A DNA stretch of 64,000 nucleotides from Tricholomella constricta. Lineage: Eukaryota > Basidiomycota > Agaricomycetes > Agaricales > Lyophyllaceae. Position 1 is the stretch's first letter, and every line of letters begins with the position of its first letter. Under the pieces are notes generated by a model. The model did not search any database and had not been told where the DNA came from. It was given only the letters and a program-made list of their open reading frames with translations. Shown in pieces: positions 2,087 through 63,216 of this stretch. Made by a program: the position numbers and the translations under genes. The DNA lies in contig JAACJP010000003.1 of NCBI GenBank assembly GCA_013368375.1, positions 620,001-684,000 of the forward strand. Reading direction: 5' to 3'.

Positions 2087-3102
2087 TGATGAGCACCGTC
2101 CCGCGCTGTACACAGAACCTGCCCATAATAGACAGCAACCGCTGCGCCACGACGAACACGGTCCCGGATGCGACCAAAGCACCGAACCGACCGACCGACA
2201 ATACGACCAAACGACCGACGCACCGACCAAGAAACAGAGTAACTTGAAACGCCAGTTCTCCTCTCTGGGCGCACGGAGCACGGAACGCCGTATAACCTGT
2301 CAACGACCACGCACGTTTGTATGCCAAGGTCTCAACCCGGCGACAACCAAACCCGATTTGAAATTATCATCGGAAACACCTTTGCCCAGCCATTCGCAGA
2401 GAGGATCCGGCCGTACCACGGAGTTCCGCACCCAAGAGCCACTACCGATCGCAAAGCCACCACCGATCATACATCCGACCCGACACCGCGAGCCGATCAA
2501 AAGCCCCTTTGCCGAGCCAAAGAGTGCCACACTCTCTAAAAAGCGTCGCGCGGTACCAAGCTTGGCGGCGCTTCTCACCATAAACTAGTAAAAACACCTG
2601 CCTCACCGGCTTGCGAGAGGCGAGTCGGTCGCATAGTATAAAAACATACCCATGTACTACCTACCTCCCCCAGTGAATTACAGCCCGTATTTTCCCTCAC
2701 ACTCAGAGTGAATAGCTCGAAACCGTCGTCTCCGTCGTCTCTGCACCGTCCTCATCGTATAAACCGTCGCCACTGTCGTAAACCTCGTAACTGCCGTCTC
2801 TGTCGCCTCGTACTCGTCGCTAGAACCCGTGAGTTCTCCATATTAACTTTGTTCGTCTCGTTGTCGCACAACCGACACCAAAAAGTCGTGTTACCGACCC
2901 GTTCCGCCTGGGAACGATCGTATTCTGTCGTATCGCCGTCGGTTCGACTAATTACGAGTCGGATCGTCTTTACTTTAATCAAACCACCCCTTTCAAACCC
3001 TGCACGCTCGCGTGTCTGGGAACTTTTAACATTTCTCGCCCCCCATAGTTGTTAGTTGTTTTGTTGTTGTGCACAGCACCTACAGGCCTTCTAGCTCTAT
3101 CA
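2087..3102 (+). repeat. 5' LTR of Ty3/gypsy element
   Basis: 1016-bp LTR with TG...CA ends. By eye it differs from the 3' LTR by two substitutions and lacks a 20-bp tandem duplication present in the 3' copy near 14160. It contains a TATA-like box (2637-2644) that should start the genomic transcript. The left boundary abuts CCGG of the target and the right boundary is followed by the primer-binding site. Confidence 0.93.
2637..2644 (+). promoter_or_regulatory. TATA-like box of the 5' LTR
   Basis: TATAAAAA lies about 550 bp into the LTR and is repeated in the 3' LTR at 14612-14619. Nine bases upstream is AGTCGG (2623-2628), a half of the palindrome found beside the polypurine tracts. The position suits a U3/R promoter driving the full-length RNA. 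Confidence 0.55.
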
Positions 3103-3105
3103 TTC

Positions 3106-3123
3106 TGGAGCCCACCGCGAGGG
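3106..3123 (+). other. Candidate primer-binding site
   Basis: Three bases after the LTR end comes TGGAGCCCACCGCGAGGG. TGG is the complement of the tRNA CCA end, followed by what could be the complement of an acceptor stem and T arm. Position and start are as expected for a tRNA-primed LTR element. I cannot name the tRNA without a tRNA set from this genome. Confidence 0.55.
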
Positions 3124-3587
3124 TTTTAAAAGCCACCGCCGGACACGCAACTTCATTCCTCTTGTTCATAAAAACCTACGACTCGTCGACCATTCCGCCC
3201 GCAACCCGACAAGAAGCTAAAGCCCGAACCCTCCGTGCCGAAATTCGCGCTGCTCTCGGACAAGCCGACACCGACTCAGAATCGCTCTCCCCGTTCTTCC
3301 GCTCAGTAACCCCACACCGCGCGATCCATAACAACCTCAGCCCGCTCTTCTATAGCCCTTCGTCGACACTACCGTCGCCTATCCCGACCGATCAAACACC
3401 GCTCCCCGAACCAACCGCGCAACCCGACCTAGCTTTTGACCCCTTTGCGTCGGAACCTCCTACCACTGATCAAGGAGTTGAATTTAGACTCCCCTATCTA
3501 TCGCCCGCGACCCCAGAAATCTCAGATTCTTCTTCACCGTCGTATTCCCCCTCCCCGTCCCCTATCCCGAAGCCAATACCATCTATC

Positions 3588-5891
3588 ATGGCACAACCAC
3601 CAATCATTATAAAGCCGATGCCCGCACGCGGACAAAGCTCGGCGCCGACGTTCGTGCCCGAACGTGCGCGTGAACTGCGCCGATATTTCTCGGACTTAAA
3701 TCATCTCTTCATCGAGTGTAACGTCGTAGATGAACAAGAGCAGAAAACGCACACTACGCGATACACCGACATCGATACCGCGGATCTGTGGGAGCAACTT
3801 GACGAGTTCGCGGTCGGCACCACATACGACGATTGGCGAAAAGCGATAATGGCGCTTTACCCAGGCGCAAGCGAAGAAAGAAAGTATTCAATGGCCGACC
3901 TCGACTACCTGATCAGGGAACGACACCGACTCGGGATCCAGTCGAATAGCGACCTCGGGGAATATTACCGACAGTTCCTTTCTGTTACCCAGTTCCTTGT
4001 CAGCAAAAACCGACTTTCGATAAACGAACGCGACCGCCAATTCCGTCGCGCGTTCCAGTCAGATCTATGGTCAAAGATCCATCGCAGGCTCGAGATCCTA
4101 AATCCGAATCACCATCCCGACGACCCCTACGCCACAGAAACCGTTCGCGCTGCAGCTGAACATATCCTCCACGGAACAAACGCCGGCCAACGACAGGAAG
4201 CGCCATCGGGCGCGCCCCTACAAATTACGATCGCGCCAAGCGGGTCGTTAACGGGCGCGACCAAGTCGCCTAGCACGGGACAGCCCCTCAAGTTGGAAGA
4301 GCTCTACGAAAGAATAAACCTGTTGGAACAACATATCCAACGCTTAGGACAAGACAAAGGAAGCGACGGCGGCCGACCGAATCAGTCACCTAATGACAAC
4401 TGCCACTTCTGCGGTGGTGAAGGACATTATATTCCTAACTGTCCCATACATCAAACATACGCGACCGAAGGACGCTGCCGACGAACCGACGACAACAAAA
4501 TAGGTCTGCCAAGCGGCGCGCGCATACCGGCGGGAACCCCAGGTCGATACATAAAAGACAAGTTAGACGAGTGGCACAGACGCAACCCCGGCCAAATGGC
4601 GACAGGACAGCTATCAGCGAACGCGAACCCGACCGAAAGCATGATGTTGGAAATACTACAGTTTAACGACGTCACCGACCATGACCTAAAAATCGAGGAT
4701 CGCATGATCGTGTTAGAACGAGAACTCAACACCCTGCGCGCAAGGAAAGAGGTGTTCGACGGCGTAGAACTTATTAGCCGCGCACCGCAAAAGCGACCCG
4801 TCACGGTCGAAACCGTTCAAGACGCCGACCAACCAAGGATCGCACCAGTCAACAAGTCAGCGCCCGCGTCGCAGCCCGTCTCGGGCGCGACGAAAGGCCA
4901 AGCCAAGGCTCCCCCGCCACCGTCCAACATACCTCTGACCCCCAGTAGCAAGACCGACGCCACAGGCACTGCCCGCGACCAGACTCCAGTACACCCTTTT
5001 TCTAACATTCCTGAGAACCGATACATCCCTCCTACCACGCGAAACTTAGCCGCCACGGAGAAGGCGAAAGCCGACAGTGCGTATCGCACACAAGCGCCCA
5101 TTACAGATCCAACCAAATCAACGACTCTATTCGAACGCGCACTCGACGCCACCATACCGGTCACAGTTCGAGAACTCTGCGGGGTAGCGCCAGAGGTTCG
5201 CGGAAAGTTTAGGGAAGCTAATACCCCGAAGCGTATCGTCGCCGGCAACCTCACAACGGTATACCAAGAAGTCCCCACGTCGGCGTTCATTGAGGAACTC
5301 GACGCACTACCTTGCGAATCCAACAGCGACAACGCGACGCCACCGCCCGGAGCGCTAGTCACCGGCGACATCTACGACACGTATTACCAGACACTACTAC
5401 CTGGCGAGCATCCGGACCGACTGATCGTCGCAATGGAATCGCATGCACTCAGATCGATCATGATAATGGTCGACGCAAGAGAACAGATAGAAAGCATCGT
5501 CGACAGCGGGTGCCAGATCATAGCCATGTCGGAAGAAGTTTGCCATGGACTAGGGGTCAAATACGACCCAACTATAGTGCTACAGATGCAATCAGCGAAC
5601 GGAACAACCGACCCGTCGCTCGGTCTAGCACGAAACGTACCTTGTACAATAGGAGAGGTCACGCTCTACCTCCAAATGCACGTCATTCGCAACCCCGCAT
5701 ACGATATACTCCTCGGCCGCCCGTTCGACGTACTTACTTGCTCTAATGTGAAAACGAGATCCGCCGACGATACGATCATAACCATCACCGACCCGAACAC
5801 TCGAGAGGTCATCGCGATACCGACCTTCGCGCGCGGACAACGTCGCCGCCCCAAAACCGACGTAAATTTTCGTATACTCTCGAGGAAATAA
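3588..5891 (+). CDS. Gag with zinc knuckle and retropepsin-type protease
   Basis: From the first in-frame ATG (MAQPPIIIKP) this encodes about 767 residues. A helical capsid-like part (YFSDLNHLF, DDWRKAIMALYPGA, LGEYYRQFL) is followed by a CCHC knuckle CHFCGGEGHYIPNC (C-x2-C-x4-H-x4-C) near 4410, a Pro/Ala-rich linker, and an aspartic protease with the DSG active site (IVDSGCQIIAMS, about 5497) and ILLGRP flap-side motif (about 5708). Gag packages the RNA; the protease matures Gag and Pol. The frame stays open upstream to about 3069 with coding-like, Pro/Ser-rich sequence but no ATG, so a non-AUG or spliced start is possible. It ends in TAA right after a -1 slippery heptamer. Confidence 0.85.
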   Translation: MAQPPIIIKPMPARGQSSAPTFVPERARELRRYFSDLNHLFIECNVVDEQEQKTHTTRYTDIDTADLWEQLDEFAVGTTYDDWRKAIMALYPGASEERKYSMADLDYLIRERHRLGIQSNSDLGEYYRQFLSVTQFLVSKNRLSINERDRQFRRAFQSDLWSKIHRRLEILNPNHHPDDPYATETVRAAAEHILHGTNAGQRQEAPSGAPLQITIAPSGSLTGATKSPSTGQPLKLEELYERINLLEQHIQRLGQDKGSDGGRPNQSPNDNCHFCGGEGHYIPNCPIHQTYATEGRCRRTDDNKIGLPSGARIPAGTPGRYIKDKLDEWHRRNPGQMATGQLSANANPTESMMLEILQFNDVTDHDLKIEDRMIVLERELNTLRARKEVFDGVELISRAPQKRPVTVETVQDADQPRIAPVNKSAPASQPVSGATKGQAKAPPPPSNIPLTPSSKTDATGTARDQTPVHPFSNIPENRYIPPTTRNLAATEKAKADSAYRTQAPITDPTKSTTLFERALDATIPVTVRELCGVAPEVRGKFREANTPKRIVAGNLTTVYQEVPTSAFIEELDALPCESNSDNATPPPGALVTGDIYDTYYQTLLPGEHPDRLIVAMESHALRSIMIMVDAREQIESIVDSGCQIIAMSEEVCHGLGVKYDPTIVLQMQSANGTTDPSLGLARNVPCTIGEVTLYLQMHVIRNPAYDILLGRPFDVLTCSNVKTRSADDTIITITDPNTREVIAIPTFARGQRRRPKTDVNFRILSRK
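5864..5870 (+). promoter_or_regulatory. Putative -1 ribosomal frameshift site A AAT TTT
   Basis: In the gag frame the codons GTA AAT TTT form the canonical X XXY YYZ heptamer AAATTTT, seven codons before the gag stop. The -1 frame is open through the site and continues to 6406 with coding-like sequence (starting TLEEISRDHGDLALLLEYDP), linking protease to the RT region. This is the usual way LTR elements set the Gag to Gag-Pol ratio. A downstream pseudoknot was not assessed. Confidence 0.7.
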
Positions 5892-6406
5892 GTCGAGATC
5901 ACGGCGATCTTGCACTCCTCCTCGAGTACGACCCACTAAGCTATACCCCGACTGTCCTTTCTTTCTGCGAACTACCAACCGAATTTAATAGCGACGCCAC
6001 CTACGACGCGCAACTAGCCTCACTCTACGTCGCGGCATCCGAACTAACCACACCAGCAATCGCCGACCAACCCGTTAATACCAACTCTGCCCCTCTGGAA
6101 CGAACGACCCTCTGCACTATTTTACCGAACAACGAGCGCCATAGTGGACGCCACACCCAATCCCTGACCAACGCCGCCACTGACGCCTTCGTTGTGAAAA
6201 TCAAAGGCGTACAAACCAAAAAGAAGTACAAACCAGTAGCGCAAAAAGTGCGATCGATCATAGCAAGTTGTCCCGACCACTTCCGCATCGAGCGCAAAAT
6301 ATCGGGCGACCCTCTCGCCGACATGCCGACTCTGCTCCCCAACCCGCCACCTTTCCAACCCACCGGCCGCTACACTCTAGAGCGAAAAAAACGACTTAGA
6401 CCGTGA
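5870..6406 (+). pseudogene. Protease-RT linker of pol in the -1 frame, ending at a homopolymer break
   Basis: This -1 frame segment reads on from the slippery site for about 178 codons (SFCELPTEFNSDATYD, later VKIKGVQTKKKYKPV and RYTLERKK) and stops at TGA 6404-6406. The RT frame opens at 6381 and overlaps. Frame and protein similarity would connect perfectly at the A7 run 6385-6391 if it had six A: ERKN would run straight into DLDREHPDFLTPSE. So pol here seems broken by one extra A, or the assembly has a homopolymer error. Confidence 0.65.
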
Positions 6407-9400
6407 ACACCCAGACTTCTTAACGCCCTCCGAACGAGCAATTATGCACGACCTCATGTGTAAGCAGAATCTCGCTTTCGCATGGGACGATTCCGAACGC
6501 GGTAGTTTTCGATCGGATTTCTTTCCCCCTATCGATATCCCGGTCGTTGCACATACACCCTGGATCGAACGAAATATCCCCATACCGCCTGGCATCTACG
6601 ATGAAGTTTGCGACATTATCAAAACTAAACTCGCCGCCGGCGTTTACGAACCGTCCAACTCCAGCTACCGATCGCGTTGGTTTTGCACTCTAAAGAAAAA
6701 TGGCAAATTCCGCCTCGTCCACAGCCTCGAACCGCTCAACCGAGTAACCATCCGACACTCGGGTGTCACTCCGATACCAGACCATGTCGCTGAACAATTC
6801 GCCGGTCGCATTTGTGGCGCAATGTTAGACCTGTTTGTCGGCTACGACGAACGGCTAATCGCACCATCGTCGCGCGACCTTACCACTTTCCAAACACCTT
6901 TCGGCGCGTTACGCCTAGTCACCTTACCTATGGGCTGGACCAACTCCGTCCCAATCTTCCACGACGACGTCACTCACATCCTGCAACCGGAGATCCCGGA
7001 CTATACACTGCCTTATATCGACGACGCTGCTATAAAGGGACCAGCAACTTGGTACCCCGACCCGGACACAGGATTGCCGAAAACACACCCCGACAATGCC
7101 GACGTGCGATTCGCGATCTGGGAGTTTTTCAACAACGTTAACCGAATCCTCCAGCGCATGAAGTACTGCGGCGGCACCTTCTCCGGCAAGAAGCTGACTT
7201 TATGCGCCCCACAATTTAAAGTCCTCGGACACGTCTGCACGCCCAATGGTCGCATACCCGACGCGGACCGACTCGCTTTACTACGTAATTGGAAGTCGTG
7301 CGCCACCCTATCAGAGTTACGCGCGTTTTTAGGAACGGTCGGAGTACTAAGGATATTCGTCAAAAACTTTGCTCATCGCGCACACCACCTCGTAAAACTA
7401 ACCCGCAAGGATGCAGTCTTCGAGTTCGGCCCCGACCAGATCGCAGCGCAGCGCGACATCGTCGAGGCGATCGCAGAAGCGAAACCCCTCGTACCCATCG
7501 ACTACGCCTCGGACGACCCCGTCATCCTGGCCGTCGACACTTCCCACATAGCAGTCGGATTCTACCTCTGTCAAGCCGACCCCGTCGATCGGAAACGACG
7601 CAGATACAATCGGTTCGGTTCCATTACACTGAACGACCGCGAATCACGGTTCTCTCAACCAAAACTCGAATTTTACGGCCTATTTCGGGCGCTTGGCGCG
7701 TTACGACTGTACGTTATAGGCGTCCGCAACTTGGTCGTCGAAGTCGACGCGCGCTACATTAAAGGAATGCTCTCCAACCCCGACATCCAGCCGTCAGCTT
7801 CCATAAACAGGTGGATCGTATCTGTCCTCATGTTCCACTTCGAACTTGTCCATGTTAAAGGCACGTTCCATGGACCCGACGGTTTGTCCCGGCGCCCACG
7901 ACAACCCGACGATCCAGCCGACAACTACGACGCAGAAGAAGCCGACTTCGAAGATTGGGTCGACCGGATGCAAGGACTCATGCACATTATTCAACCGCTG
8001 CCACAGCCGCCGTCGCCATTACATGTGTGCCAGATCTTCGCTATGGCTCAGGTCTCAAGTAAAGAGGAGATGGTGGCAGTATACACGGACGCGGTACCAC
8101 CAGACTCAACGACTCACGAACTCGCAACCGATTCCCCACGACAACCCAGAATCCGTACCGACGACGATACAGGAATAACCGACCCAAATGCGAATTCGAC
8201 CGACATGTCATACGACGACGTGCCCAGGACCGACGCCGCTAAAGCCCAAGACCAACGCATAGATACGGTTAGACAATGGTTGACCAACCTCGAACGGCCA
8301 GAAGGCATGTCCGACGATCAGTACGCCACCTTCATCCGATACGCCACCGGGTTCTTCCTAGACGGAACACGACTCTGGAGAAGAGATAGCCAAGGCGCAC
8401 ATAAACTAGTCGCCCGCCCCAACGCACGACTAGAGATTCTGCGATCCGTCCACGACAACCTCGGACACAAGCGCTTCTACGCGACACGCGCAACCTTGCT
8501 CGAACGCTTCTGGTGGCCTAATGTTCGGGCCGACGTCGTGTGGTTCGTACAGACATGTCACATATGCCAGATCCAGCAAACGACCAAAGTCCTGATCCCC
8601 CCGGTCGTTGCGACACCCGCGCCACTGTTTGCAAAAATGTACATTGACACTATGCACCTACCGCCGTCGAATGGTTTCAAATACATTGTCCAAGGTCGTT
8701 GCTCCTTGATTCACTTTCCTGAATGGCGCGCGCTCCGAAAGGAAAACAGTCGCACCCTCGGCGATTGGATGTATGAAGACATCATCTGCCGGTGGGGCGG
8801 ACTGCGCGAAATCGTAACCGACAACGGTCCGGCCTTCATCAAAGCCGCTGAACACCTCACAAAGAAATACCACATACACAACATTCGGATCTCAGGTTAT
8901 AACTCCAGAGCCAACGGACTCGTCGAGCGGTCCCATTTCGACGTTCGACAGTCCCTTTTCAAAGCCGCCGACGGAAACGAAAGCAAATGGTCGCAATCAG
9001 CTTATACGGTTTTCTGGGCCGAACGGGTCACAATCCGCAAACGAATGGGATGCTCCCCCTACTACGCCGCGACAGGTACTCAACCCCTTCTGCCGCTCGA
9101 TATCGTTGAAGCCACGTACCTCCAACCGCCACCCGACTCTATCCTATCCTCCACCGACCTCTTGACGCGACGCGCGATCGCCTTACAAAAACGGACGACC
9201 GACCTAGAGCGACTACATTCAGACGTATACGCGGCGCGAAGACAAGCGGCGATTCGCTTTGAACTTAAACACGCCAGAACCTTGCGCGACTATAACTTTA
9301 AACGCGGAAACCTCATCCTAATGCGCAACACGAAAATCGAGAAGTCGCTCAACCGCAAAATGCGATCTAGATACCTAGGACCGCTCGTCGTGATCTCGCG

Positions 9401-9635
9401 CAACCGCGGGGGCGCCTACATCCTCTGCGAACTGGACGGCACCGTCTTACACCGGCCTGTAGCAGCGTTCAGACTCGCGCCCTACTTCGCGCGAAACAAC
9501 ATCCTCCTACCCGACAGCGCTCTGGACATAGACACCAAGCGACTTAGAGAACTGGAAGCAACAACAATCACCGACGACGAAGACCGACCCGAAGTCGTAG
9601 ACGACGACTCCGAATCGGAAAACGAGCAAAACTAG
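6381..9635 (+). CDS. pol: Pol: reverse transcriptase, RNase H, integrase (Ty3/gypsy type)
   Basis: The frame opens at 6381 (DLDREHPDFLTPSERAIMHD) and the first ATG is 6444, which is probably internal to the original polyprotein. Residues counted from 6444: RT about 40-330 with the YIDD box at about 191 (nt 7013-7024); RNase H about 365-500 (AVDTSHIAVG, KLEFYGLF, VEVDARYIKG, FHGPDGLSRRP); integrase zinc finger HDNLGHKRF...CHICQ at about 670; integrase catalytic D in YIDTMH, D in TDNGPAF and E in GLVERSH (34 residues between the last two by my count, close to DD35E); and a GPY-like tail RYLGPLVVI. All catalytic residues are present. Synthesises and integrates the cDNA. Only the upstream join to gag-protease is damaged. 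Confidence 0.92.
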   Translation, partial: SEKNDLDREHPDFLTPSERAIMHDLMCKQNLAFAWDDSERGSFRSDFFPPIDIPVVAHTPWIERNIPIPPGIYDEVCDIIKTKLAAGVYEPSNSSYRSRWFCTLKKNGKFRLVHSLEPLNRVTIRHSGVTPIPDHVAEQFAGRICGAMLDLFVGYDERLIAPSSRDLTTFQTPFGALRLVTLPMGWTNSVPIFHDDVTHILQPEIPDYTLPYIDDAAIKGPATWYPDPDTGLPKTHPDNADVRFAIWEFFNNVNRILQRMKYCGGTFSGKKLTLCAPQFKVLGHVCTPNGRIPDADRLALLRNWKSCATLSELRAFLGTVGVLRIFVKNFAHRAHHLVKLTRKDAVFEFGPDQIAAQRDIVEAIAEAKPLVPIDYASDDPVILAVDTSHIAVGFYLCQADPVDRKRRRYNRFGSITLNDRESRFSQPKLEFYGLFRALGALRLYVIGVRNLVVEVDARYIKGMLSNPDIQPSASINRWIVSVLMFHFELVHVKGTFHGPDGLSRRPRQPDDPADNYDAEEADFEDWVDRMQGLMHIIQPLPQPPSPLHVCQIFAMAQVSSKEEMVAVYTDAVPPDSTTHELATDSPRQPRIRTDDDTGITDPNANSTDMSYDDVPRTDAAKAQDQRIDTVRQWLTNLERPEGMSDDQYATFIRYATGFFLDGTRLWRRDSQGAHKLVARPNARLEILRSVHDNLGHKRFYATRATLLERFWWPNVRADVVWFVQTCHICQIQQTTKVLIPPVVATPAPLFAKMYIDTMHLPPSNGFKYIVQGRCSLIHFPEWRALRKENSRTLGDWMYEDIICRWGGLREIVTDNGPAFIKAAEHLTKKYHIHNIRISGYNSRANGLVERSHFDVRQSLFKAADGNESKWSQSAYTVFWAERVTIRKRMGCSPYYAATGTQPLLPLDIVEATYLQPPPDSILSSTDLLTRRAIALQKRTTDLERLHSDVYAARRQAAIRFELKHARTLRDYNFKRGNLILMRNTKIEKSLNRKMRSRYLGPLVVISRNRGGAYILCELDGTVLHRPVAAFRLAPYFARNNILLPDSALDIDTKRLRELEATTITDDEDRPEVVDDDSESENEQN

Positions 9636-10059
9636 CCGCTCAACCTCTGACTACCCGTATACCCCCCCCCCTTTTTTTTAATGATATTTCGACATCTATC
9701 CCTCTCCGGTTTCTACTTAAACGTCCCACGACCCGACCATTCGCGAAGTCCAACACCCCGAGCGACAGTTTTTCCATTCGTTCTTTTAACCCCCACTCAA
9801 TTTTCAGGATCACACACTTAATACCTGACTTCGCAGGAAAACAGCACGGCGTATATTACATTTTAGCCCATTTTACGGGCTCCGACAAGTCCAAATACAG
9901 AACAGGAAAAAAACGCGACGCCTCTAGCGGAGGAACGACGCGGCCACAACACCAAGAAAAACCGGCCCAACAACCACCGACACCATGCGACGCCTCTAGC
10001 GGAGGAACGACGCGACCACGACCCCAAGACAAACGACGCGACGCCACCGCCGACTACCT
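9636..10059. repeat. Spacer after pol with a tandem 28-bp palindromic repeat
   Basis: The spacer between pol and the antisense gene starts with a C/T homopolymer stretch (9663-9679). It then holds two copies, about 72 bp apart (9915-9942 and 9987-10014), of a 28-base unit starting GCGACGCCTCTAGCGGAGG. The centre CCTC-TAGCG-GAGG can form a short hairpin. The repeats lie just downstream of the antisense gene stop and could serve as a 3' end or boundary element; no function can be shown. Confidence 0.5.
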
Positions 10060-12176
10060 CTACTCCTCCTCCACCAAGTCACCTTCCACCTCCTCTTCGT
10101 CGCCCTCTTCGCCAGTCTCCACCGCTTCTTCCTCCGACGCCGCGCAGCTGTCGCTCTCCGAAAGCTCGACACCGTCCGCTCGCATTAACTGAGAACGTCG
10201 CCTGCGGAGCGCAGTGATCGCGTTTGCTGTGCCGGCGAATTGTTCGCGCACTCGGATAAGGCTCCAACGGGCGATCTCCTGCCGCGATTCCCACAGGTGC
10301 AGCTCCTGAATTAGCGAACGCAACATGGCGTTGCGCGACGTTAGAGCCCGGTCGACGTCCCCCAGGGGAAGCGAGGCGACACGCGACAAATCGGTGGCGT
10401 AGCCTAAGCCATCCAAATCACGGTTGCGTGGAAGACTGGTTCCTCGGGGTACACGACCACCGTGGACGGCGCTGGCGCCCATGCCCGACCCCTCAACGGT
10501 GTATTGAGCTTCCTGCAGAGCCCCTACAGTCGGCCCCCAGTCTTCGTCACTGAACGCAGTAAGGGCGCGCGCCCGGCGACGCGAGACGGAAGGCGACACG
10601 GTCTCCACGTCCTCCTCGGAGTCCTCCACGACGGGCTTGGAGGCGACGCGACGACGACTCCGCGGACGCGAGTTCTTGACAACTGCCGCGTCGGACTTGT
10701 ACTTCACGGTTTCGCACCGCTTGGAGAAGATTTTGCACCGCACACAGATCCCGCCCTCAGGTTTCTGAAAGCAGTCAACGGCGGCGTCGGCACAGCGATC
10801 ACACTACAGCGTCGTCAGAATGCGACCGACCCGACAGAACACACAGCGACTTACCGGCTCGTCACGAATGAAGTGGTTCGGGTGGGCGACTTTGAACTCC
10901 TCTAGCCGCTCCAACCACTTAAACTCGGCGGCGGCCTTCTTCGCTGCCGTGGCCTGCTCCCGCTTCTTGGCCGCCGTGGCCCCCTTCTTGCCAGTCGCCT
11001 TCCCCGCCTTGACCGCCCCCGGCACCTTCTCTGTCTTGGGTACCACCTCCACAACCTCAGGCGCGGACCCCTCGCCTTCGTCGTCGACAGCGCGCTTCCG
11101 CTTGCGGCTAGATGACGCTGGTACCGTGTCGATGAGGACGATGGGTGGTCCACCTACCGAAGGTGTCAGAGGGAGCCCGTCGATCGGACTAAAAATGACG
11201 GGTGAAGCAAACGCGAACTCACCAGCGGCACCCGTTTTCGGACGTCCACCTCCGGCCGACATGTGGGGTAACGTCACTGGGCGATATGCGGGGTCGCGCA
11301 CGCTCAACACCTTGGCCCTAGCTTTAACCTTCCCCTTTGGAGGAGCGGAAGCGACGGGCGACGCGGGGGGTGCCCGATCGAGCATAACGACGTCGGACGC
11401 CGGAGGTGAGCGCGACAGGAGGGGGGGTCGCATCGGCTCCAGGGCTTCCCGCCCCATCCGCTCCGCCATCGCCATAACTCTCGCCGCTTCCGCTTCCCGC
11501 ACGACACCCGCTACAGTGTGGGTATCGCTACCAGCCGGGCCGGCGATACCACGGGGTGGCGCACCCGACTCCGGATGAAGGGGCGCGTCGTCGACTGTCG
11601 CGGACACTGGGAGGACACTTTCAGTTCCCACAGGAACCCCTGCTACAGTAGCAGCCGAACTCGGTGCAGCCGCAGTCGTAGCGGTAGTCTCGGCATCGGT
11701 CGTGGGCAGACGCGGGTCGGTTGGTAGGGCCGCCACAGCCGTTAACGCTGGCAGGTCCTCGGGCGCCACCGACTGGGCGGCGCGTATGTTGGCCGCCGCA
11801 CCCAAGCGAGCACGACGGGTGCGACGACGGCGCGCGTTTTCACTCTAGGAAGGCTGGATAAGCAGCCCACCCACGGACCAGTCAAAACAACTAAACCGCG
11901 ACGCACCTCAGGTTCTAACCCACCAAACGGCCCCCTCCACTCAGCATCCCCCCCTACGACAGCCCAGACCGCACGCAACGCGGATTCCTCCTCAGGCCAC
12001 ACCCAACGCGGTTCCTCGCCCCCCTGGGCACGTAATGCCGATACTCCCTCCAGCAACCCCTCGAGAATGGCGAGACGTGCTTCACGCGACGCATCGGCAG
12101 ACAGCGCCCGCCAGTCGTCCCAGTCGCCCTGAAGGTCCTCGAGGATGAGTGCATAGTTGGGTGGCAGGTCAGCCAT
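10060..12176 (-). CDS. Antisense accessory protein, copy 1, Zn(II)2Cys6-spaced cluster
   Basis: Three exons on the strand opposite to gag-pol: 12176-11907, 11844-10855, 10803-10060; introns of 62 nt (GTGCGT...TAG) and 51 nt (GTAAGT...TAG), both phase 0; 667 residues. Exon 1 (90 codons) begins MADLPPNYALILEDLQ and has DWDDWRALSADASREAR and a Trp-rich end. Exon 2 begins SENARRRRTRRARLG (possible nuclear signal) and is long, Ala/Pro/Lys-rich, ending WLERLEEFKVAHPNHFIRDEP. Exon 3 starts inside the cluster: CDRC, then x6-C, x8-C, CVRC, x6-C, which is the exact spacing of the fungal binuclear zinc cluster. A helical module (DLDGLGYATDLSRVASLPLG, DVDRAL, SLIQELHLWESRQEI) and an acidic tail follow. 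Paralogue of 12583-13879. Not recognised as a named family; a DNA-binding role is inferred from spacing only. Confidence 0.8.
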
Positions 12177-12582
12177 GCCTGAAGACGGTGTGGGAGTGAA
12201 AAAGAGGGAGCCGAGAAAGACAGAGGGTCCTTGGGAAACTTGACGCGAGGTCAAATTCTGTTGCACCGCCACCGCCATCTCACGCCACACACGCGTCAAT
12301 TCTAGAATTCTCTCGACCGGTCTCCGGACCGACTGAGGACAGTCGGCATTTCAAGTAAGGAGGAGACGAACTACAGATGAAACGACAGCCGATACTAGCA
12401 ACCGACACCGCCAACCACAAAACCGACCGACACAACGAACCGACCTGCGCCACTTAAAAACACGAAAAATTCGAGCTATAAAGAACAACCCAATTTGAAG
12501 GCCCGAACCATAAAATAGGTATATACGGGATACGCGACCGGTAACAAACGTGACCCGACCGCAACACACGACAAAACCAAAG
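12177..12582. other. Spacer between the two antisense genes
   Basis: About 400 bp holding the upstream region of antisense copy 1 (with the hairpin and purine tract described separately) and the 3' flank of copy 2. No other conserved coding sequence is visible. Confidence 0.5.
12329..12367. promoter_or_regulatory. Internal hairpin plus second polypurine tract
   Basis: CCGACTGAGGACAGTCGG (12329-12346) is a perfect 7-bp palindrome around AGGA, beginning CCG and ending CGG. It is followed by CATTTCAAGTAAGGAGGAGA, nearly the same as the sequence in front of the 3' LTR (14022-14041). It sits about 150 bp upstream of antisense copy 1. It could act as a secondary plus-strand priming tract, as an antisense promoter element, or both; it also marks the edge of the duplicated module. 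Confidence 0.6.
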
Positions 12583-13879
12583 TCAAGGCGACGAACCCTC
12601 GCCACGATCGTCGCGTACGCCACAGTCGACAGCGCTCCCACTACCGTTGCCCCCACTCCTCGAATTAACCATCGCAGACGCACCAACTAACTCGGCGCGC
12701 CGGGCCTGAAGCAAGTCAAGGGCCGACGACGTAGACACGACCTGCTCGTAAAGCTGACGGGACGACGAACGCATGATCTCTTGGCGCGATTCAAGGACTT
12801 GAATTTCCTGGACCAAAGTGCGCAAGAAAACGGTGCGCGCCGATAGCGCCCGATCTACATCTGCAAGACCAAACCGCGAAATAACCGACAACGGCTGAGT
12901 GAAGCCCAAACCGCGCAAATCTTCGTTACGAAGGAAGTCCTCAGGGCGGAACACCGGGCTCTGATAAAGGAGACCCGCACCCCGGTCTACTGAACTTGCC
13001 GAACGAGTTACGACAAGGCGCGGAGCGGCCCTTGCCAGATCGGGCGAACGGACCTCGTCGAACAGCGGAGGGGGCATACACGCGTCGCAAGAGTGGCCCT
13101 CTACTGAACACGACACGAACTGGTGCGGAGCTGGCCGAAACGACCCCACTTCGTTCGTCTCGCACCGTCTAGATTGAATCTCGCAAACCGCGCAAACCTC
13201 AATGTCGCTGCGCTGAATGCAGCCCAAGCCGTAGCTCACACAACGATCGCACTAGCCAATAGATGAACGAAAGAGCAAGGACGCAAGAAGACCGACGACT
13301 TACCGCTTCGCTACGAGTGTAATGCTCAGGGTACTCCTTCTTAAATTCCTCGAGACGTGCCAGCCACAAACGGTGTCGCATCCCTTGTGCCGCTAATACC
13401 GACTCCCCGGAGATCTCGACGACAGACTCTTCTTGGTCCCCGTCTCCAACAGAGGAAGCGCACGAACGCTCCCGAACGACAGGCCCTGCCTTTTCTTCAG
13501 CGAAGGTGGCGCGCGTACGGACGACCGTCTCTCGGCGAGGGTAATCGGACTACCAACTAGCGCGTTAGTACTCTGCAGAAACGACCAAATAACCAGCAAG
13601 CGAACGCACACTCGGTTCTAGATCCGCGAACCGCTCGGACCATTCGGGGTCGGACTCGATCGTAGACCATATGTTAGATAATGCCTCTTCCTCGTCGCCC
13701 CACATCCAACGCCAGGGACTAGCCACCGGCGACCTAAGCACTTCGAGGCTGTTCGTCAAGTATTGTAACACACGGGTGCGCGCGTAACGAGGGGAGTCGG
13801 CCGACAGCGATTGCCATTCGTCCCAGTCTCGTTCCAAGAAGCGGAGAGTGCGCTGAAGATCGACAGGAGGTCTCGACAT
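12583..13879 (-). CDS. Antisense accessory protein, copy 2, Zn(II)2Cys6-spaced cluster
   Basis: Three exons, 13879-13610, 13549-13304 and 13251-12583; introns of 60 nt (GTGCGT, branch TACTAAC, TAG) and 52 nt (GTAAGT...TAG), both phase 0 and at the same positions as copy 1; 394 residues. Exon 1 is again 90 codons, with WDEWQSLSADSPRYAR and WMWGDEEEALSNIW matching copy 1. Exon 2 is only 82 codons against 330 in copy 1 and ends LARLEEFKKEYPEHYTRSEA. Exon 3 opens CDRC and keeps C-x2-C-x6-C-x8-C-x2-C-x6-C, with ETNE after the cluster. The helical module DLRGLGFTQPLSVISRF, DVDRALSART, LVQEIQVLESRQEI follows. Protein similarity without easy nucleotide alignment suggests an old duplication with both copies kept under selection. 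Confidence 0.8.
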
Positions 13880-13909
13880 AACGATGGGTAAACCAATCAA
13901 GAACCCGAG

Positions 13910-13919
13910 TATATATATA
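13910..13919 (-). promoter_or_regulatory. TATA-like box upstream of antisense copy 2
   Basis: TATATATATA lies 31-40 bp upstream of the copy 2 start codon on the minus strand. Palindromic by sequence, so orientation rests on context. The distance implies a very short leader. Copy 1 has no equally clear box. Confidence 0.35.
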
Positions 13920-14003
13920 GGTCGCCAGCGCGCCGGCACCGCCACTTCCTCCTACCCCTGCCCCTCTTTTCCAAGACGAACGCCCCCTGACCGATGCACG
14001 GGA

Positions 14004-14041
14004 CCGACTGAGGACAGTCGGTATTTCAAGTAAAGAGGAGA
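14004..14041 (+). promoter_or_regulatory. Hairpin and polypurine tract at the 3' LTR
   Basis: The same 18-base palindrome CCGACTGAGGACAGTCGG (14004-14021) is followed by TATTTCAAGTAAAGAGGAGA, whose AAAGAGGAGA directly abuts the 3' LTR. This is the plus-strand primer of the element. The palindrome is about 125 bp upstream of antisense copy 2, a spacing similar to that at copy 1. Confidence 0.8.
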
Positions 14042-15077
14042 TGATGAGCACCGTCCCGCGCTGTACACAGAACCTGCCCATAATAGACAGCAACCGCTGC
14101 GCCACGACGAACACGGTCCCGGATGCGACCAAAGCACCGAACCGACCGACCGACAATACGACCGACCAACCGACAATACGACCAAACGACCGACGCACCG
14201 ACCAAGAAACAGAGTAACTTGAAACGCCAGTTCTCCTCTCTGGGCGCACGGAGCACGGAACGCCGTATAACCTGTCAACGACCACGCACGTTTGTATGCC
14301 AAGGTCTCAACCCGGCGACAACCAAACCCGATTTGAAATTATCATCGGAAACACCTTTGCCCAGCCATTCGCAGAGAGGATCCGGCCGTACCACGGAGTT
14401 CCGCACCCAAGAGCCACTACCGATCGCAAAGCCACCACCGATCATACATCCGACCCGACACCGCGAGCCGATCAAAAGCCCCTTTGCCGAGCCAAAGAGC
14501 GCCACACTCTCTAAAAAGCGTCGCGCGGTACCAAGCTTGGCGGCGCTTCTCACCATAAACTAGTAAAAACACCTGCCTCACCGGCTTGCGAGAGGCGAGT
14601 CGGTCGCATAGTATAAAAACATACCCATGTACTACCTACCTCCCCCAGTGAATTACAGCCCGTATTTTCCCTCACACTCAGAGTGAATAGCTCGAAACCG
14701 TCGTCTCCGTCGTCTCTGCACCGTCCTCATCGTATAAACCGTCGCCACTGTCGTAAACCTCGTAACTGCCGTCTCTGTCGCCTCGTACTCGTCGCTAGAA
14801 CCCGTGAGTTCTCCATATTAACTTTGTTCGTCTCGTTGTTGCACAACCGACACCAAAAAGTCGTGTTACCGACCCGTTCCGCCTGGGAACGATCGTATTC
14901 TGTCGTATCGCCGTCGGTTCGACTAATTACGAGTCGGATCGTCTTTACTTTAATCAAACCACCCCTTTCAAACCCTGCACGCTCGCGTGTCTGGGAACTT
15001 TTAACATTTCTCGCCCCCCATAGTTGTTAGTTGTTTTGTTGTTGTGCACAGCACCTACAGGCCTTCTAGCTCTATCA
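14042..15077 (+). repeat. 3' LTR of Ty3/gypsy element
   Basis: 1036 bp, TG...CA ends, matching the 5' LTR except for a 20-bp tandem duplication near 14160-14180 and two substitutions that I could see (near 14500 and 14841). Followed by the CCGG target duplicate. TATA-like box at 14612-14619. Confidence 0.93.
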
Positions 15078-17346
15078 CCGGAGTTACTGGTTGCCAGACG
15101 AGCACCGAAAGGGTGTACATGATCTGAATAATAGGTGCCACGGAACAACACAACCAGGAAAGGTTTGTGGTCAGGCAGTGCTGGGCACATGCGGTGGAAA
15201 GCTTTGATATCGAAGGACATAGCTTGGGTGCCCGTGGGGCATGAGCGACCTTTTGAATTTGGAGGAATTAGAATTTGTAGATAGATACGAGATGAGGATC
15301 GAAGGAGAAACTTGGCAAGAAGTCATAAGACCATGTCGTATGAAATGGACCGAAGAGAGGCGAGACTCCTTGCTTAATATTAGGAGGCGATGCCGGAGAT
15401 ATTAGAAAGATATGAGGCCAAGAGAATACGAGGCCAAGTGGTGGAGAGAATTTAGAGGTTTGGTAAAGGAAGAGAATTTAGGAATTCGATAAGAGATTTG
15501 TGAGAGATTTGGACGAGCGGTGAGAACCGGTGTCGTCAGAAATTTGATACGAGAGAATTTAATTTCAGCAATGTTCCAAAGGGGGAACATCACTGCTAGA
15601 GTTTTAATGGGCTCCCGTCAGCGCTGTTTGAGCTAAATGTTTTGAAGAGGAGATGAGTGGAGAGAGGTAAGAAATGTAACTTACCTTTTTGGTGACACAA
15701 AAGGCCATATCGAAGCATGTCAGAAAATTTTCCTTTGATATGAAGCTGTTCATGGAAGGTGTACCAGTGAGGGAGTCTTTCTTAGAGAGATTTCGACAAA
15801 TGCAAAGTTTCGGAGGAAGACCCGGACCAGCATCTTGCTCCGCTACGATAAAAGAAGAGCAGTAGATAGGTCCCCGCATGATACACTCTACTTCCTCAAG
15901 AGAGTAGGGGCCGGACATGCGACCAAGGCTAATTTCTGTCGAGAGATGTTCGGCTACAGCTTCGGGATGGAGATCGACGGAAGGATGGTTGCGGATAACG
16001 ACCGACTTGGTTAATTTTGGAAGAGTACCCAGGGGAAAACCGTGTTTGAGGTTGTCAAGTAGATGAGGATAGGCACCAAGTAGATTATGCTTATTTAAGA
16101 AATAGCCAAAGGCTGAGACATTATACGGCATGGCGACGCGCTCAAAGAGTTCATTGTCAACAGAGGTAGAAGTAGGCAAACGAGGGCGGTAATGAATGTC
16201 GTCCAAAAAATCGCGATATGAAAAAACAGTCTCAGGCTTGTATAAAGCCATCAAAGATCCTATTACATGCTGCACTTTGTTTGAAGGCCGCGTGAGGGGT
16301 GCTGCACAGTGAGCAGAGGGGGAGCCCGTCAGTGCCGTGGCGATTGTCACAGAACCTGTTGAGGTTGTAGAAAATGCAGATCCTCTTTGCACTACTTTTC
16401 TTGTGGGGTTTGGCGGTCCACGAGGTGCTGTCGCGGAGACGCAAGAAGAAAGGTTTCTCATTGTCAAAGGAGGTTGTGCTCACTGGGTGGTCGCATAGGA
16501 AGGCGGCGCCTCCAGAGGAGCGAAGACAGGTGACTCGGTCCCAATGGTTGAGACCAAGGGAGGTGAGGTACAGAGGAGTTCGAGCGCAGCGAGGAGATTG
16601 TTAGAGGCTTCTATGAAACAGAAAGGGGAAAGACAAGTGTACAACTCATCTTAGCCCCATATGGAGATCATCTTGGGCATATCCAGAAGTTGCACCTTTT
16701 CCGTGGAATCCTCGTCCCAAGGGCGGAGCAATTTGAAGTGCACATCCTGGGGCAAGTAGTTGATGGCCTCCATGTGCTCGTTAGTGGAAAAGTTCAAGGG
16801 TGGACACATCTTGTTCTTGACACAGAGCAAGTAGGTTGTTGGAATGGTGATGTGATCATGACAGGCAGCGACCCATTTAACCGGATCAACGAGGTGCATA
16901 CTGCCGAGCAATTTGGTCCCAGTCTTGGTTTCAGCCTCCTTCTCCTTTTTGGCTTGCCTGTCCAACTCAGCGACCTTCTTCGAACGTGCACGCTGCCCTT
17001 CAACGTATCGGACAAGAGTGACGGGTAAAGGACTCAGAGTCGAGCAAAGTACTTCACTGTCAACAAACTCTCAAAATTTTTCGGTGAACCCGTATCCCCA
17101 TCTAAGAGGGGGTCCTATGTCCAAGTCCGGCGGTCGAGGGCAAGGCGTCTCTTTAGCGCTGATTGTCTTGAAGATACTATCATTGTTGTACTGCTCAATT
17201 TTGACATTACGAAGCACGCGCGTCTGAAGCGGGATCTTGGGCATATTGAGAGCATCAGGCACACTGTGGTGAGGCTCAAAGTCGAAATCCTCTATATGGC
17301 CTGGAATACTGGCATTAGGGAGCTGAGTGGACATATTGCTGAACAA
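15078..17346 (-). pseudogene. 5' half of interrupted DIRS-like retroelement: gag-like and RT fingers
   Basis: Reading from 17346 leftward: a gag-like start MFSNMSTQLPNASIPGHIED, a segment at 16965-16651 with WVAACHDHITIP and ALN-type gag character (PPLNFSTNEHMEAINYL), a Cys/His motif at about 16400 (CIFYNLNRFCDN, then LCSLCSTPHAAF), and the RT N-terminal part (FIVAEQDAGPGLPPKLCICR, GTPSMNSFISKENFLTCFD). After an AT-rich stretch of about 430 bp the palm continues with PTGTQAMSFDIKAFHR and HPFGARLATSNSG to the insertion point. Frame changes near 16380 and the extra stretch show decay. The rest of the RT is at 1000-2086. Confidence 0.75.
15240..15680. other. Non-coding stretch inside the outer RT
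   Basis: Purine- and AT-rich sequence with repeated GAGAATTTAG and GAGATTTG-like words separates two RT blocks that should be contiguous. It could be a small insertion or a degenerate intron. No terminal repeats or target duplication could be fixed by eye. Confidence 0.35.
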
Positions 17347-17513: not shown

Positions 17514-18974
17514 TGGTCTACATACCAGTGTATAGGCTTGGTTTCTAACAGGTTATGGGCCATTGTTGAACACCTACGCGTCAACAATTACAGGAATCCA
17601 GAACCGACACCAGAAAACTGGATTGCACTCTGATCCAGAGACCGATCACATCAGTACATCGCTATCTAATCAGAAGCACGCGCGCCTCGAGCTCTTTGTC
17701 TCCAGAACCTCATTCTCCACACAACCCCACTGTCCCCATTGGACAGAACAATACACTCTACAATGGGCACTCAACAAACACTCGAAGGCAACATCCTATC
17801 TATCCCCGCCATGGCAGTTCTCACACAGTGGACATTTAACTTTCAAATTTCCGAGTTGATCGGTGGCGATGTGGTTCATTATAGGCTCCTTCTTCTTCTT
17901 GATTGTGTCCTTCAGGTGATCAACAGTTTTCGAAGGCAGAATGTCAACCATAAAGGAGTCTGCACCGTCGGTGTCAGCAGGCGAGCACCCATCAGCTTCA
18001 GATCACGTGCGTCGCGTGACTTCTTCTTGTTTTGGTCAGTCTTTTCCATGCCACCGCGGCAAAACCACCTAAATCTGCTCAGGTACCCCAATGTCTTACC
18101 AAAACGCAGTGGGACAAATCACTGGGCCCATTGTTCAATCTTTGGATGGCATTCTGAAGCTGGTCTTCGCCCTATCCCACGTGCTCTTACAGTCGCAGAC
18201 AAGCAAACACAACAAATTTGATATCTCGGGAACCAGATTTTTTGTGAACAAACTGACGACGGGATCATACTCAGAATCAAGGAAGGAGTCAAAAAACACA
18301 TCTCCAAAGTTTTTCCCACGAGAAAACGGGGGCGGCCAAATTTTTGGCAGTTTTGAACACCTTTTTCAGTGTACCTAACTCCGTCTAGACCCCTTGCTGA
18401 CTGCCCCACCCCATTATACACTGATCTAAGCCAGATGTGAGCCAATCAATATGCCCCTCAGCTACAAATCTTGTACAAACCACTCAGAAGCTGTGTTTGG
18501 TGAGAAATTCGAAGCGGGGAATGCCGACGATGGTGCTGATCCGAAAGCAATTTTCATTTCTGGGCAAGATGAATCATCATTTTTCTCCGGAACTACGATG
18601 AGAATTCCTCTAAACTCCTGAATCATGCTTAGATTATCAAAAGGAGTCGAAAAACACGTCTCCAAAGTTTTTCCCACAAGAAAACGGGGACGGCCAATTT
18701 CCCATTTCGTCGATATTGAGGAATCGGCTCGTGGAAATTTATTCCTTTCATCGTTTAGGAGCTATATCTGCAATAAAAAATGAAATCAGAAGGGGACCAG
18801 GAGCCTCCATAAATCCACCCCCCAAATTGGTTGTGTTTGCTTGTCCGCAACTGTACATCTCACCCCTCAACAGCTTCACAACAGTCATCCAGAAGTGGCC
18901 GCCTCCTAGGGCAAGGAGAACATTGCTTCCTCACTAAGACTATATGCTACACTCATGACCAGACACATTTTTTA

Positions 18975-62151: not shown

Positions 62152-63216
62152 ATGTTGCTCCTCGCCCGACGTTCTGCACTCCAGAGAAATGTCTCACAAG
62201 TCTCTGGGTGCCGATCAATGAGTGTTCGACCCCGCAAAGACCAAGAAGCACCGGAAGGTTTGCCCCATCTTTTCTGACATGATTAACGGAATTTCATAAG
62301 TCCTTGACATACAGGTCGCAAAAAAGTAACCATTCAATCGCTTCTGACCCAGCGCAGGAATAAAATTCCTATAACTATGTTGACTGCCTACGACTATCCT
62401 ACCGGACTGGCGTGCTCTTCTAACCCAAACATCGACATCACTCTGGTCGGCGATTCTCTGGCCCAAGTATGTCTGGGCCATAGCTCCACCACCCAATTGA
62501 CTCTGGCGGAAATGATCCATCATGCACGCGCGGTGTCTCGAGGCACAACCCATCCCCTCCTTGTCGCCGACATGCCTTTTGGCACATACCACATCTCCCC
62601 GTCCTCCGCTGCCACGAACGCTATACGTCTGATTCAAGAGGGTCGGGTTGATGCAGTGAAACTCGAGGGTGGATGCGAAATAGTGGGGATTGTTCAGCAA
62701 CTGACAAGCATCGGCATTCCTGTCATGGCACACGTTGGGCTTTTGCCTCAGCGACACATTGCCATGTCTGGCTATAAAGTTCAAGGTCGGAGCGCAGAAG
62801 CCGCGCAACGCGTGCTCCGCGATGCTCTGGCGTTGGAAGCTGCCGGAGCATTTTCGGTCGTTGTGGAAGCGGTACCCAAGGAGCTTGGGACATTTCTCAC
62901 ACAGCGACTGAAGATCCCCACCATAGGGATCGGAGCTGGGCCTGGAACTGATGGGCAGGTGAGCTTCAGTCTTTTTTTTGGAAGGATCAGCAGTGTCTTG
63001 ACGAAGACTGGGAAGGTACTGGTTTGGGACGACGCAATGGGCACTTGGCCTGGACACAAGGCGAAATTTGTGCGACGGTTTGCAGATCTGCAGACGCCCA
63101 GAGACAGTGGGGTGGCGGCGTATGCGAATGCAGTTCGAGACGGGTCGTTCCCGCTCGACGCCGAGAGTTACTCAATGGAGAAGGAGGAATGGGAAACGTT
63201 ATTAAAGCTTAATTAG
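62152..63216 (+). CDS. panB: Ketopantoate hydroxymethyltransferase (PanB)
   Basis: Start MLLLARRSALQRNVSQVSGC, a likely mitochondrial presequence. Intron 1 (GTTTGC...ACAG, 59 nt) joins to GRKKVTIQSLLTQRRNKIPI. Family core: MLTAYDYPTGLACSSNPNID, LVGDSLAQVCLGHSSTTQLT, HPLLVADMPFGTYHISPSSA, DAVKLEGGCEIVGIVQQLTS, AHVGLLPQRHIAMSGYKVQG, GAFSVVVEAVPKELGTFL, IPTIGIGAGPGTDGQ; after a second intron VLVWDDAMGTWPGHKAKFVR. Metal-binding Asp (VGDS) and catalytic Glu (VEAVP) are present. Transfers a hydroxymethyl group from methylene-tetrahydrofolate to ketoisovalerate, first step to pantothenate and coenzyme A. Confidence 0.95.

Follow-up and report, generated by a model that had tools for sequence, protein, structure and literature searches.

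Two antisense, intron-bearing genes with a six-cysteine cluster in a Ty3/gypsy-type retrotransposon of Tricholomella constricta, one of them deeply variable among element copies

Two antisense genes between pol and the 3′ LTR

The 64-kb window analysed here, the whole 64,000-nt stretch of Tricholomella constricta DNA, contains at positions 2087–15077 a Ty3/gypsy-type long terminal repeat (LTR) retrotransposon that carries two additional genes, A (encoding 667 aa) and B (encoding 394 aa), in antisense orientation between pol and the 3′ LTR. Each gene has three exons, and after splicing both proteins contain the motif C-x2-C-x6-C-x8-C-x2-C-x6-C, which begins directly after a phase-0 second intron. 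A preliminary description of this DNA had proposed two such antisense three-exon genes inside the element, each with the cluster right behind a phase-0 intron and with a first exon of 90 codons; the coordinates were verified in the window (Table 1), and both shared features are seen in the window models. The acceptors of intron 1 in A and B are chosen ones, since alternative acceptors likewise keep the frame open. The intron-2 junction is also found in the GenBank gene model P0001, a related gene of the same genome, with the identical boundary FERPIP/CDRC.

The cysteine spacing of the A and B exon-3 candidates falls within that of the Zn2Cys6 family (PF00172), C-x2-C-x6-C-x5-12-C-x2-C-x6-8-C. 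Outside the cluster, the first exon encodes a tryptophan-rich domain, the proteins contain basic stretches interpreted as nuclear signals, and 19 of the 42 residues in the acidic tail of gene A are D or E.

Conservation across copies and selection on the proteins

A pol protein search of the genome yielded 1305 candidates, 43 of which were scored; these copies are 91–100% identical, 31 of the 43 lack an internal stop, and for 40 of them the DNA between pol and the 3′ LTR was examined. Both first exons are present in 34 of the 40 loci, and five have neither, two of them lying at contig ends (L026, L030) and three being truncated or rearranged (L005, L010, L032). The common gene structure described earlier needs correcting in that three exons account for 30 of 34 B genes but for no more than 18 of 35 A genes; in several A genes that are intact and belong to other classes, exon 2 is apparently split by one further intron. 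A first exon of 90 codons occurs in 28 of 30 modelled B and 15 of 18 modelled A genes.

Retention of the cysteines in related elements, on which the preliminary description had staked its case, is borne out: among the exon-3 candidates from the 40 copies of this same genome, all 37 for A and 29 of the 31 for B have the six intact, a candidate being a hidden Markov model (HMM) match that starts at the first cysteine, a choice that favours high cysteine retention. Gene B has lost one cysteine in each of L003 and L007. In an alignment of 15 A and 14 B sequences (alignment A1), picked from 54 distinct third exons with the rows showing cysteine loss excluded, the invariant positions include all six cysteines as well as several in the helical module occupied by L, R, Q or E.

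Analysis of 28 A and 30 B third exons reveals median ratios of nonsynonymous to synonymous divergence (dN/dS; NG86, pairs with dS above 0.1) of 0.13–0.40 for A, where pairs are often near saturation (242 with dS above 1.2 and 38 not computable), and of 0.25–0.30 for B. The copies are related and some are near-identical, so that the selection counts are not independent. For pol the median is 0.035–0.067 (20 copies, 19 compared, one being of different length), and near-identical pairs (dS below 0.02), which differ by few changes, give 0.52 in A, 0.17 in B and 0.18 in pol. Regionally (13 A and 27 B sequences, three B rows dropped), dN/dS is lowest in the cluster (A class I 0.04, B 0.17) and rises through the helical module (0.11 and 0.18) to the tail (0.28 and 0.53). 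Moreover, among 13 class-I A and 28 B sequences (two odd B rows dropped), the antisense frame alone of the six is open in every compared third exon, and variable sites at the three codon positions number 63/55/161 in A and 83/90/156 in B, the third position dominating. Divergence per site is 0.17–0.18 in the B introns and 0.094 in B exon 1. Constraint from an overlapping conserved sense gene was considered and rejected, as no sense frame is open across all compared third exons. Together, ratios well below 1 and the conserved cysteines and splice sites support what had been claimed from the window alone, namely that A and B are under purifying selection as proteins.

A tree of exon-3 proteins from 25 A and 23 B sequences splits the two genes with 100/100 support and branches far more deeply within A than within B; the split indicates that both genes have been retained since before the sampled elements diverged; by this phylogeny they appear to be old paralogues. 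Recent acquisition of a Zn2Cys6 gene from the host was rejected, since no host hit above the Pfam Zn_clus cut-off coincides with the elements; an ancient capture of such a gene is conceivable.

Variation of gene A between similar elements

The A genes fall into classes that were named after the distance table and before the trees were built. Protein identity between most classes is 25–42%, classes II and III sharing 59% and classes V and VI 68%. Four copies (L021, L035, L029 and L027) carry A genes of classes III, III, II and IV, respectively, and compared with the window element they retain 96–98% identity in pol protein, 88–97% in the B exons and 92–94% in the LTR, with only 51–55% in the A exons; such copies, alike in pol, B and LTR, have A proteins that share about 40% identity. 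Similarity drops directly after the pol stop and recovers near the conserved block and the palindrome upstream of A. The L019 element likewise matches the window at 100% in gag, 98% in pol and 80% in B exon 3, and at 42% in A exon 3. Divergence of the A DNA to chance level was rejected, because real identities of A exon 3 are 50–55% and aligned shuffles average 43–44%, with a largest value of 47.6%. These deep differences between otherwise similar elements were invisible from the single copy on which the preliminary description was based.

Synonymous distances within single pairs are discordant: L001 and L013 differ by 0.146 in pol, 1.84 in A and 0.333 in B, and L001 and L021 by 0.324, 1.86 and 0.088, so that no single shared history at one synonymous rate accounts for either pair. 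The simplest account would be that A was replaced by recombination, or that the remainder of the element was homogenised. Near-identical copies occur inside classes III and VI, pointing to a recent spread of several classes.

The exchange has limits. The synonymous distance of A shows rank correlations of 0.68 with pol (66 pairs), 0.36 with B (153 pairs) and 0.18 with the LTR (171 pairs). With 20 copies, a pol tree rejects a class I clade (approximately unbiased test, p 0.0014), and it needs only two changes of A class. Three classes require at least that many, and the pattern would fit one replacement of I by II and one by III. The B tree also rejects a class I clade (p 0.001) and requires seven changes for four classes, 11 of its 24 inner branches being weak. 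An A class wholly independent of pol was rejected on the strength of the pol correlation and of the minimal number of changes on the pol tree; the exchange of A is real yet limited, and A partly tracks pol. LTR distance is 0.077 within the same A class and 0.084 between different classes, and gag identity to the window does not sort the A classes, the class-I copies L017 and L022 having 91% in gag.

A palindromic 44-nt repeat beside both genes

A 44-nt repeat is located upstream of each gene. With up to 12 mismatches in 44 allowed, at least two copies are found in 34 of the 40 loci, one in L019 and none in five. The exact palindrome occurs at 109 genome sites, compared with 0 for a reversed control; within the window, four sites with up to three mismatches are not above the chance mean of 2.88, and the two of these without mismatch belong to the repeat itself. 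The CCG/CGG ends of the palindrome would be appropriate for a zinc-cluster protein that binds as a dimer. The outer unit, taken as RNA, folds into a hairpin (z −2.29, with 6 of 200 shuffles equally stable). The purine run of the outer unit is the polypurine tract and that of the inner unit resembles a second one, and a tandem duplication of gene and tract would be the simplest origin of this arrangement.

The host element and its surroundings

The element shows the order protease, reverse transcriptase, RNase H and integrase, the LTRs and the target-site duplication of a Ty3/gypsy retrotransposon, Pfam having scored RNase H and integrase and not reverse transcriptase. Between its two LTRs there are 2 substitutions and one tandem indel of 20 nt, and CCGG stands at both outer flanks. 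The start of the gag-protease open reading frame (ORF) is a mechanical one inside the LTR edge. The open frame of pol comprises 1084 codons in the window, compared with about 1280–1295 in most of the 43 scored relatives; the 5′ part of pol being out of frame or closed, this copy may be non-autonomous. Just downstream of the gene A stop lies a 48-nt direct repeat in two copies, 9915–9962 and 9987–10034 (92%).

Table 1. Features of the retrotransposon and its antisense genes, in window coordinates
Feature	Position	Strand	Remarks
5′ LTR	2087..3102	+	TG...CA
gag-protease ORF	3069..5891	+	Pfam asp protease, weak CCHC knuckle
pol ORF	6444..9635	+	RNase H, integrase H2C2, weak rve (Pfam); YIDD motif by eye
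Gene A exon 3	10060..10803	-	six-cysteine cluster, basic linker, helical module, acidic tail
Gene A intron 2	10804..10854	-	51 nt, GTAAGT...TAG
Gene A exon 2	10855..11844	-	330 codons
Gene A intron 1	11845..11906	-	62 nt
Gene A exon 1	11907..12176	-	90 codons
Block CACGCCACACACGCG upstream of gene A	12281..12295		in most of 12 aligned copies, not L027
Inner 44-nt repeat, upstream of gene A	12326..12369		palindrome CCGACTG-N4-CAGTCGG and purine run
Gene B exon 3	12583..13251	-	six-cysteine cluster, helical module
Gene B intron 2	13252..13303	-	52 nt, GTAAGT...TAG
Gene B exon 2	13304..13549	-	82 codons
Gene B intron 1	13550..13609	-	60 nt, TACTAAC
Gene B exon 1	13610..13879	-	90 codons
Outer 44-nt repeat, upstream of gene B	14001..14044		purine run (polypurine tract) abuts 3′ LTR
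3′ LTR	14042..15077	+	

Minus-strand ORFs at 1115–2327 and 14954–16467 flank the element and by eye resemble reverse transcriptase pieces of another retroelement, in which case the window element would be a nested insertion; a Pfam scan of these flanking ORFs gave no match. Further along, a 79-nt direct repeat (18264–18342 and 18622–18700, 84%) is enclosed by a 33-nt inverted pair (18188–18220 and 18823–18855), and the repeat structure around 18188–18855 is perhaps a small non-autonomous element. A plus-strand ORF at 62377–63216 (279 aa) resembles a ketopantoate hydroxymethyltransferase (PanB) and may encode one. A tRNA scan of the 64-kb window, run with bacterial settings, found none.

Candidate functions of A and B

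We give about an even chance to the reading that A and B are element-encoded nuclear regulators, kept in antisense so that their introns survive, with A swapped as a unit. From the features described above we infer a chain of steps. One ancestral antisense gene would have been duplicated together with the adjoining palindrome and polypurine tract to yield A and B, both of which would be translated from antisense, spliced mRNAs. The sense genomic RNA lacks matching splice signals where introns lie in antisense; with the splice signals on the antisense strand, the genomic RNA would remain unspliced there and the introns would survive retrotransposition. The proteins would then move into the nucleus, form pairs and bind element nucleic acid, perhaps at the palindrome upstream of both genes, thereby setting element expression. 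Recombination between elements would replace A as a unit, so that old A versions circulate in a young backbone. The basic stretches, the helical module and the acidic tail fit nuclear regulators.

Several observations weigh against this reading, beginning with the identity of the cluster. The preliminary description had recognised in it the spacing of the fungal binuclear zinc cluster and had seen in the genes a candidate DNA-binding regulator expressed in antisense, an interpretation that is partly supported; the spacing is indeed exact, but the wider resemblance falls short. A Pfam scan of the window A and B proteins gives no Zn_clus hit, only 5 of 29 members match that model, with a best E value of 0.041 and all under the gathering cut-off, and none of 22 genome-wide Zn_clus hits lies within these elements. 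The Zn2Cys6 consensus has basic residues in the first cluster loop; here that loop is not basic (for example ADAAVD and VSYGLG in alignment A1), and some basic character is confined to classes such as those of L027 and L039. Additionally, the gene B of L037 and L039 (by reading of the sequence) and of L040 (by HMM match) is without the cluster and passes from exon 1 through a basic stretch to the helical module; these cluster-less B genes form one diverged subfamily, and they might serve as partners without a nucleic-acid-binding part. Locus L038 retains A only, its B being deleted and its palindromes lying 175 nt apart. The palindrome may act as an RNA hairpin at the polypurine tract rather than as an operator. 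The LTR hardly follows A, so that a class-specific LTR regulator is not favoured, and class-specific recognition of the LTR or gag was not supported, as neither predicts A class.

Protein database searches, two of them among 8000 scored candidates only, recovered no relative outside this genome, the sole hit coming from the same genome, which also weighs against this reading. One PDB search returned nothing and another five weak hits (best E 0.026), none of them a zinc cluster. One search of viral contigs found no relative, and 60 pattern matches in another yielded none that was confirmed. No cellular copy of A or B was noticed among the genome matches, not every one of which was checked for adjoining pol.

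A tentative but serious alternative is that A and B act in replication or particle assembly, as RNA-binding or capsid-modifying proteins whose cluster binds RNA or protein. The lack of a Zn_clus match above cut-off, the non-basic first loop and the folding of the palindrome as an RNA hairpin directly before the polypurine tract all suit such a role, while the basic stretches interpreted as nuclear signals, the acidic tail and the failure of gag to predict A class argue against it.

Self-encoded copy-number control or exclusion, in which A would restrain its own type and a diverged A would escape, is modelled on Ty1, whose canonical and Ty1′ forms differ in gag (PMC7055915), and we consider it unlikely here. 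It would explain the deep diversity of A across similar backbones and the near-identical copies in classes III and VI that suggest recent spread; yet neither gag nor LTR predicts A class, no co-varying partner was found, and pol and A distances correlate (rho 0.68). By a further analogy, with mating-type idiomorphs, A could be a multi-version recognition gene, a zinc-cluster protein that acts via the palindrome and tells own from foreign copies in immunity or copy-number control, with rare versions favoured and cassettes exchanged at the duplicated polypurine tract; this is a speculative proposal to which we attach rather little probability.

It is quite improbable that the antisense RNA itself is what matters, its overlap with sense RNA feeding silencing and the A DNA diverging to escape homology. 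The identity of A DNA between classes, about 50%, would fit, as would the precedent of plant elements, for which a possible silencing role of antisense RNA is discussed in PMC7264820; constraint acts at the protein level, however, and most strongly in the cluster, and gene B, antisense too, did not diverge alike. Finally, the idea that the open antisense frames and the cysteine spacing are accidents of GC-rich sequence can draw on the base composition of the region and on other long mechanical ORFs, such as 10820–11578 on the plus strand, and is refuted by dN/dS, third-position variation and the conservation of introns and cysteines, which leave it next to no credence.

In this family, over 30 copies sampled from a single genome bear two intron-containing antisense genes under measurable protein selection. 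Together with natural swaps of A in similar backbones and a duplicated palindrome as a candidate target, this makes the choice between a regulator, a replication factor and a self-recognition factor directly testable. The family also illustrates how an intron-containing gene persists in an RNA-mobile element.

Comparison with known systems

To our knowledge, no function is known for antisense genes in LTR retrotransposons. The closest counterparts of A and B in position are the plant aORF-3R genes of Grande, RIRE2 and Retand (TRP28), which, in PMC7264820 and PMC11963269, are described as antisense, located between pol and the 3′ LTR and present in most copies, TRP28 being predicted to bind DNA; the former source likens the conservation of aORF-3R to that of other retrotransposon proteins. 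A and B share the orientation, the location and the presence in most copies. Unlike the plant genes, they form a pair of paralogues, each with several exons and a six-cysteine cluster, gene A is far more variable than pol, and Pfam scans of A and B gave no match to TRP28. In fungi, the brtn gene of Boty-like elements of Botrytis cinerea is likewise an additional antisense gene in a gypsy element, as described in PMC7264820 and PMC8365987.

Zn2Cys6 regulators (PF00172), whose cluster binds two zinc ions and CGG/CCG DNA, resemble A and B in cysteine spacing and, for A, in the basic stretches, helical module and acidic tail. They differ in that A and B stay under the Pfam cut-off, have a first loop that is not basic, and carry the cluster at the start of exon 3 rather than near the N-terminus. 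The human T-cell leukaemia virus gene HBZ, presented in PMC11963269 as a proposed regulator encoded in antisense near a retroelement's 3′ end, parallels A and B in orientation and place, with no sequence relation claimed, although here there are two genes and not one. Ty1 p22, a self-encoded copy-number factor that is gag-derived and sense, in an element with recombinant subfamilies (PMC7055915), offers a further parallel in a self-encoded factor and recombinant subfamilies. A and B, unlike p22, are separate antisense genes, and gag does not predict A class, as L019 illustrates with its 100% gag and 42% A exon 3.

Searches of the open-licence PMC literature yielded no account of such genes in a basidiomycete, and none of six-cysteine antisense genes that come in pairs and carry introns, or that vary in a cassette-like way. 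On the sequence comparisons made here, A and B appear to belong to a known kind, the antisense additional ORFs of LTR retrotransposons, to which they would add two new traits, a pair of intron-bearing six-cysteine genes and the cassette-like behaviour of A.

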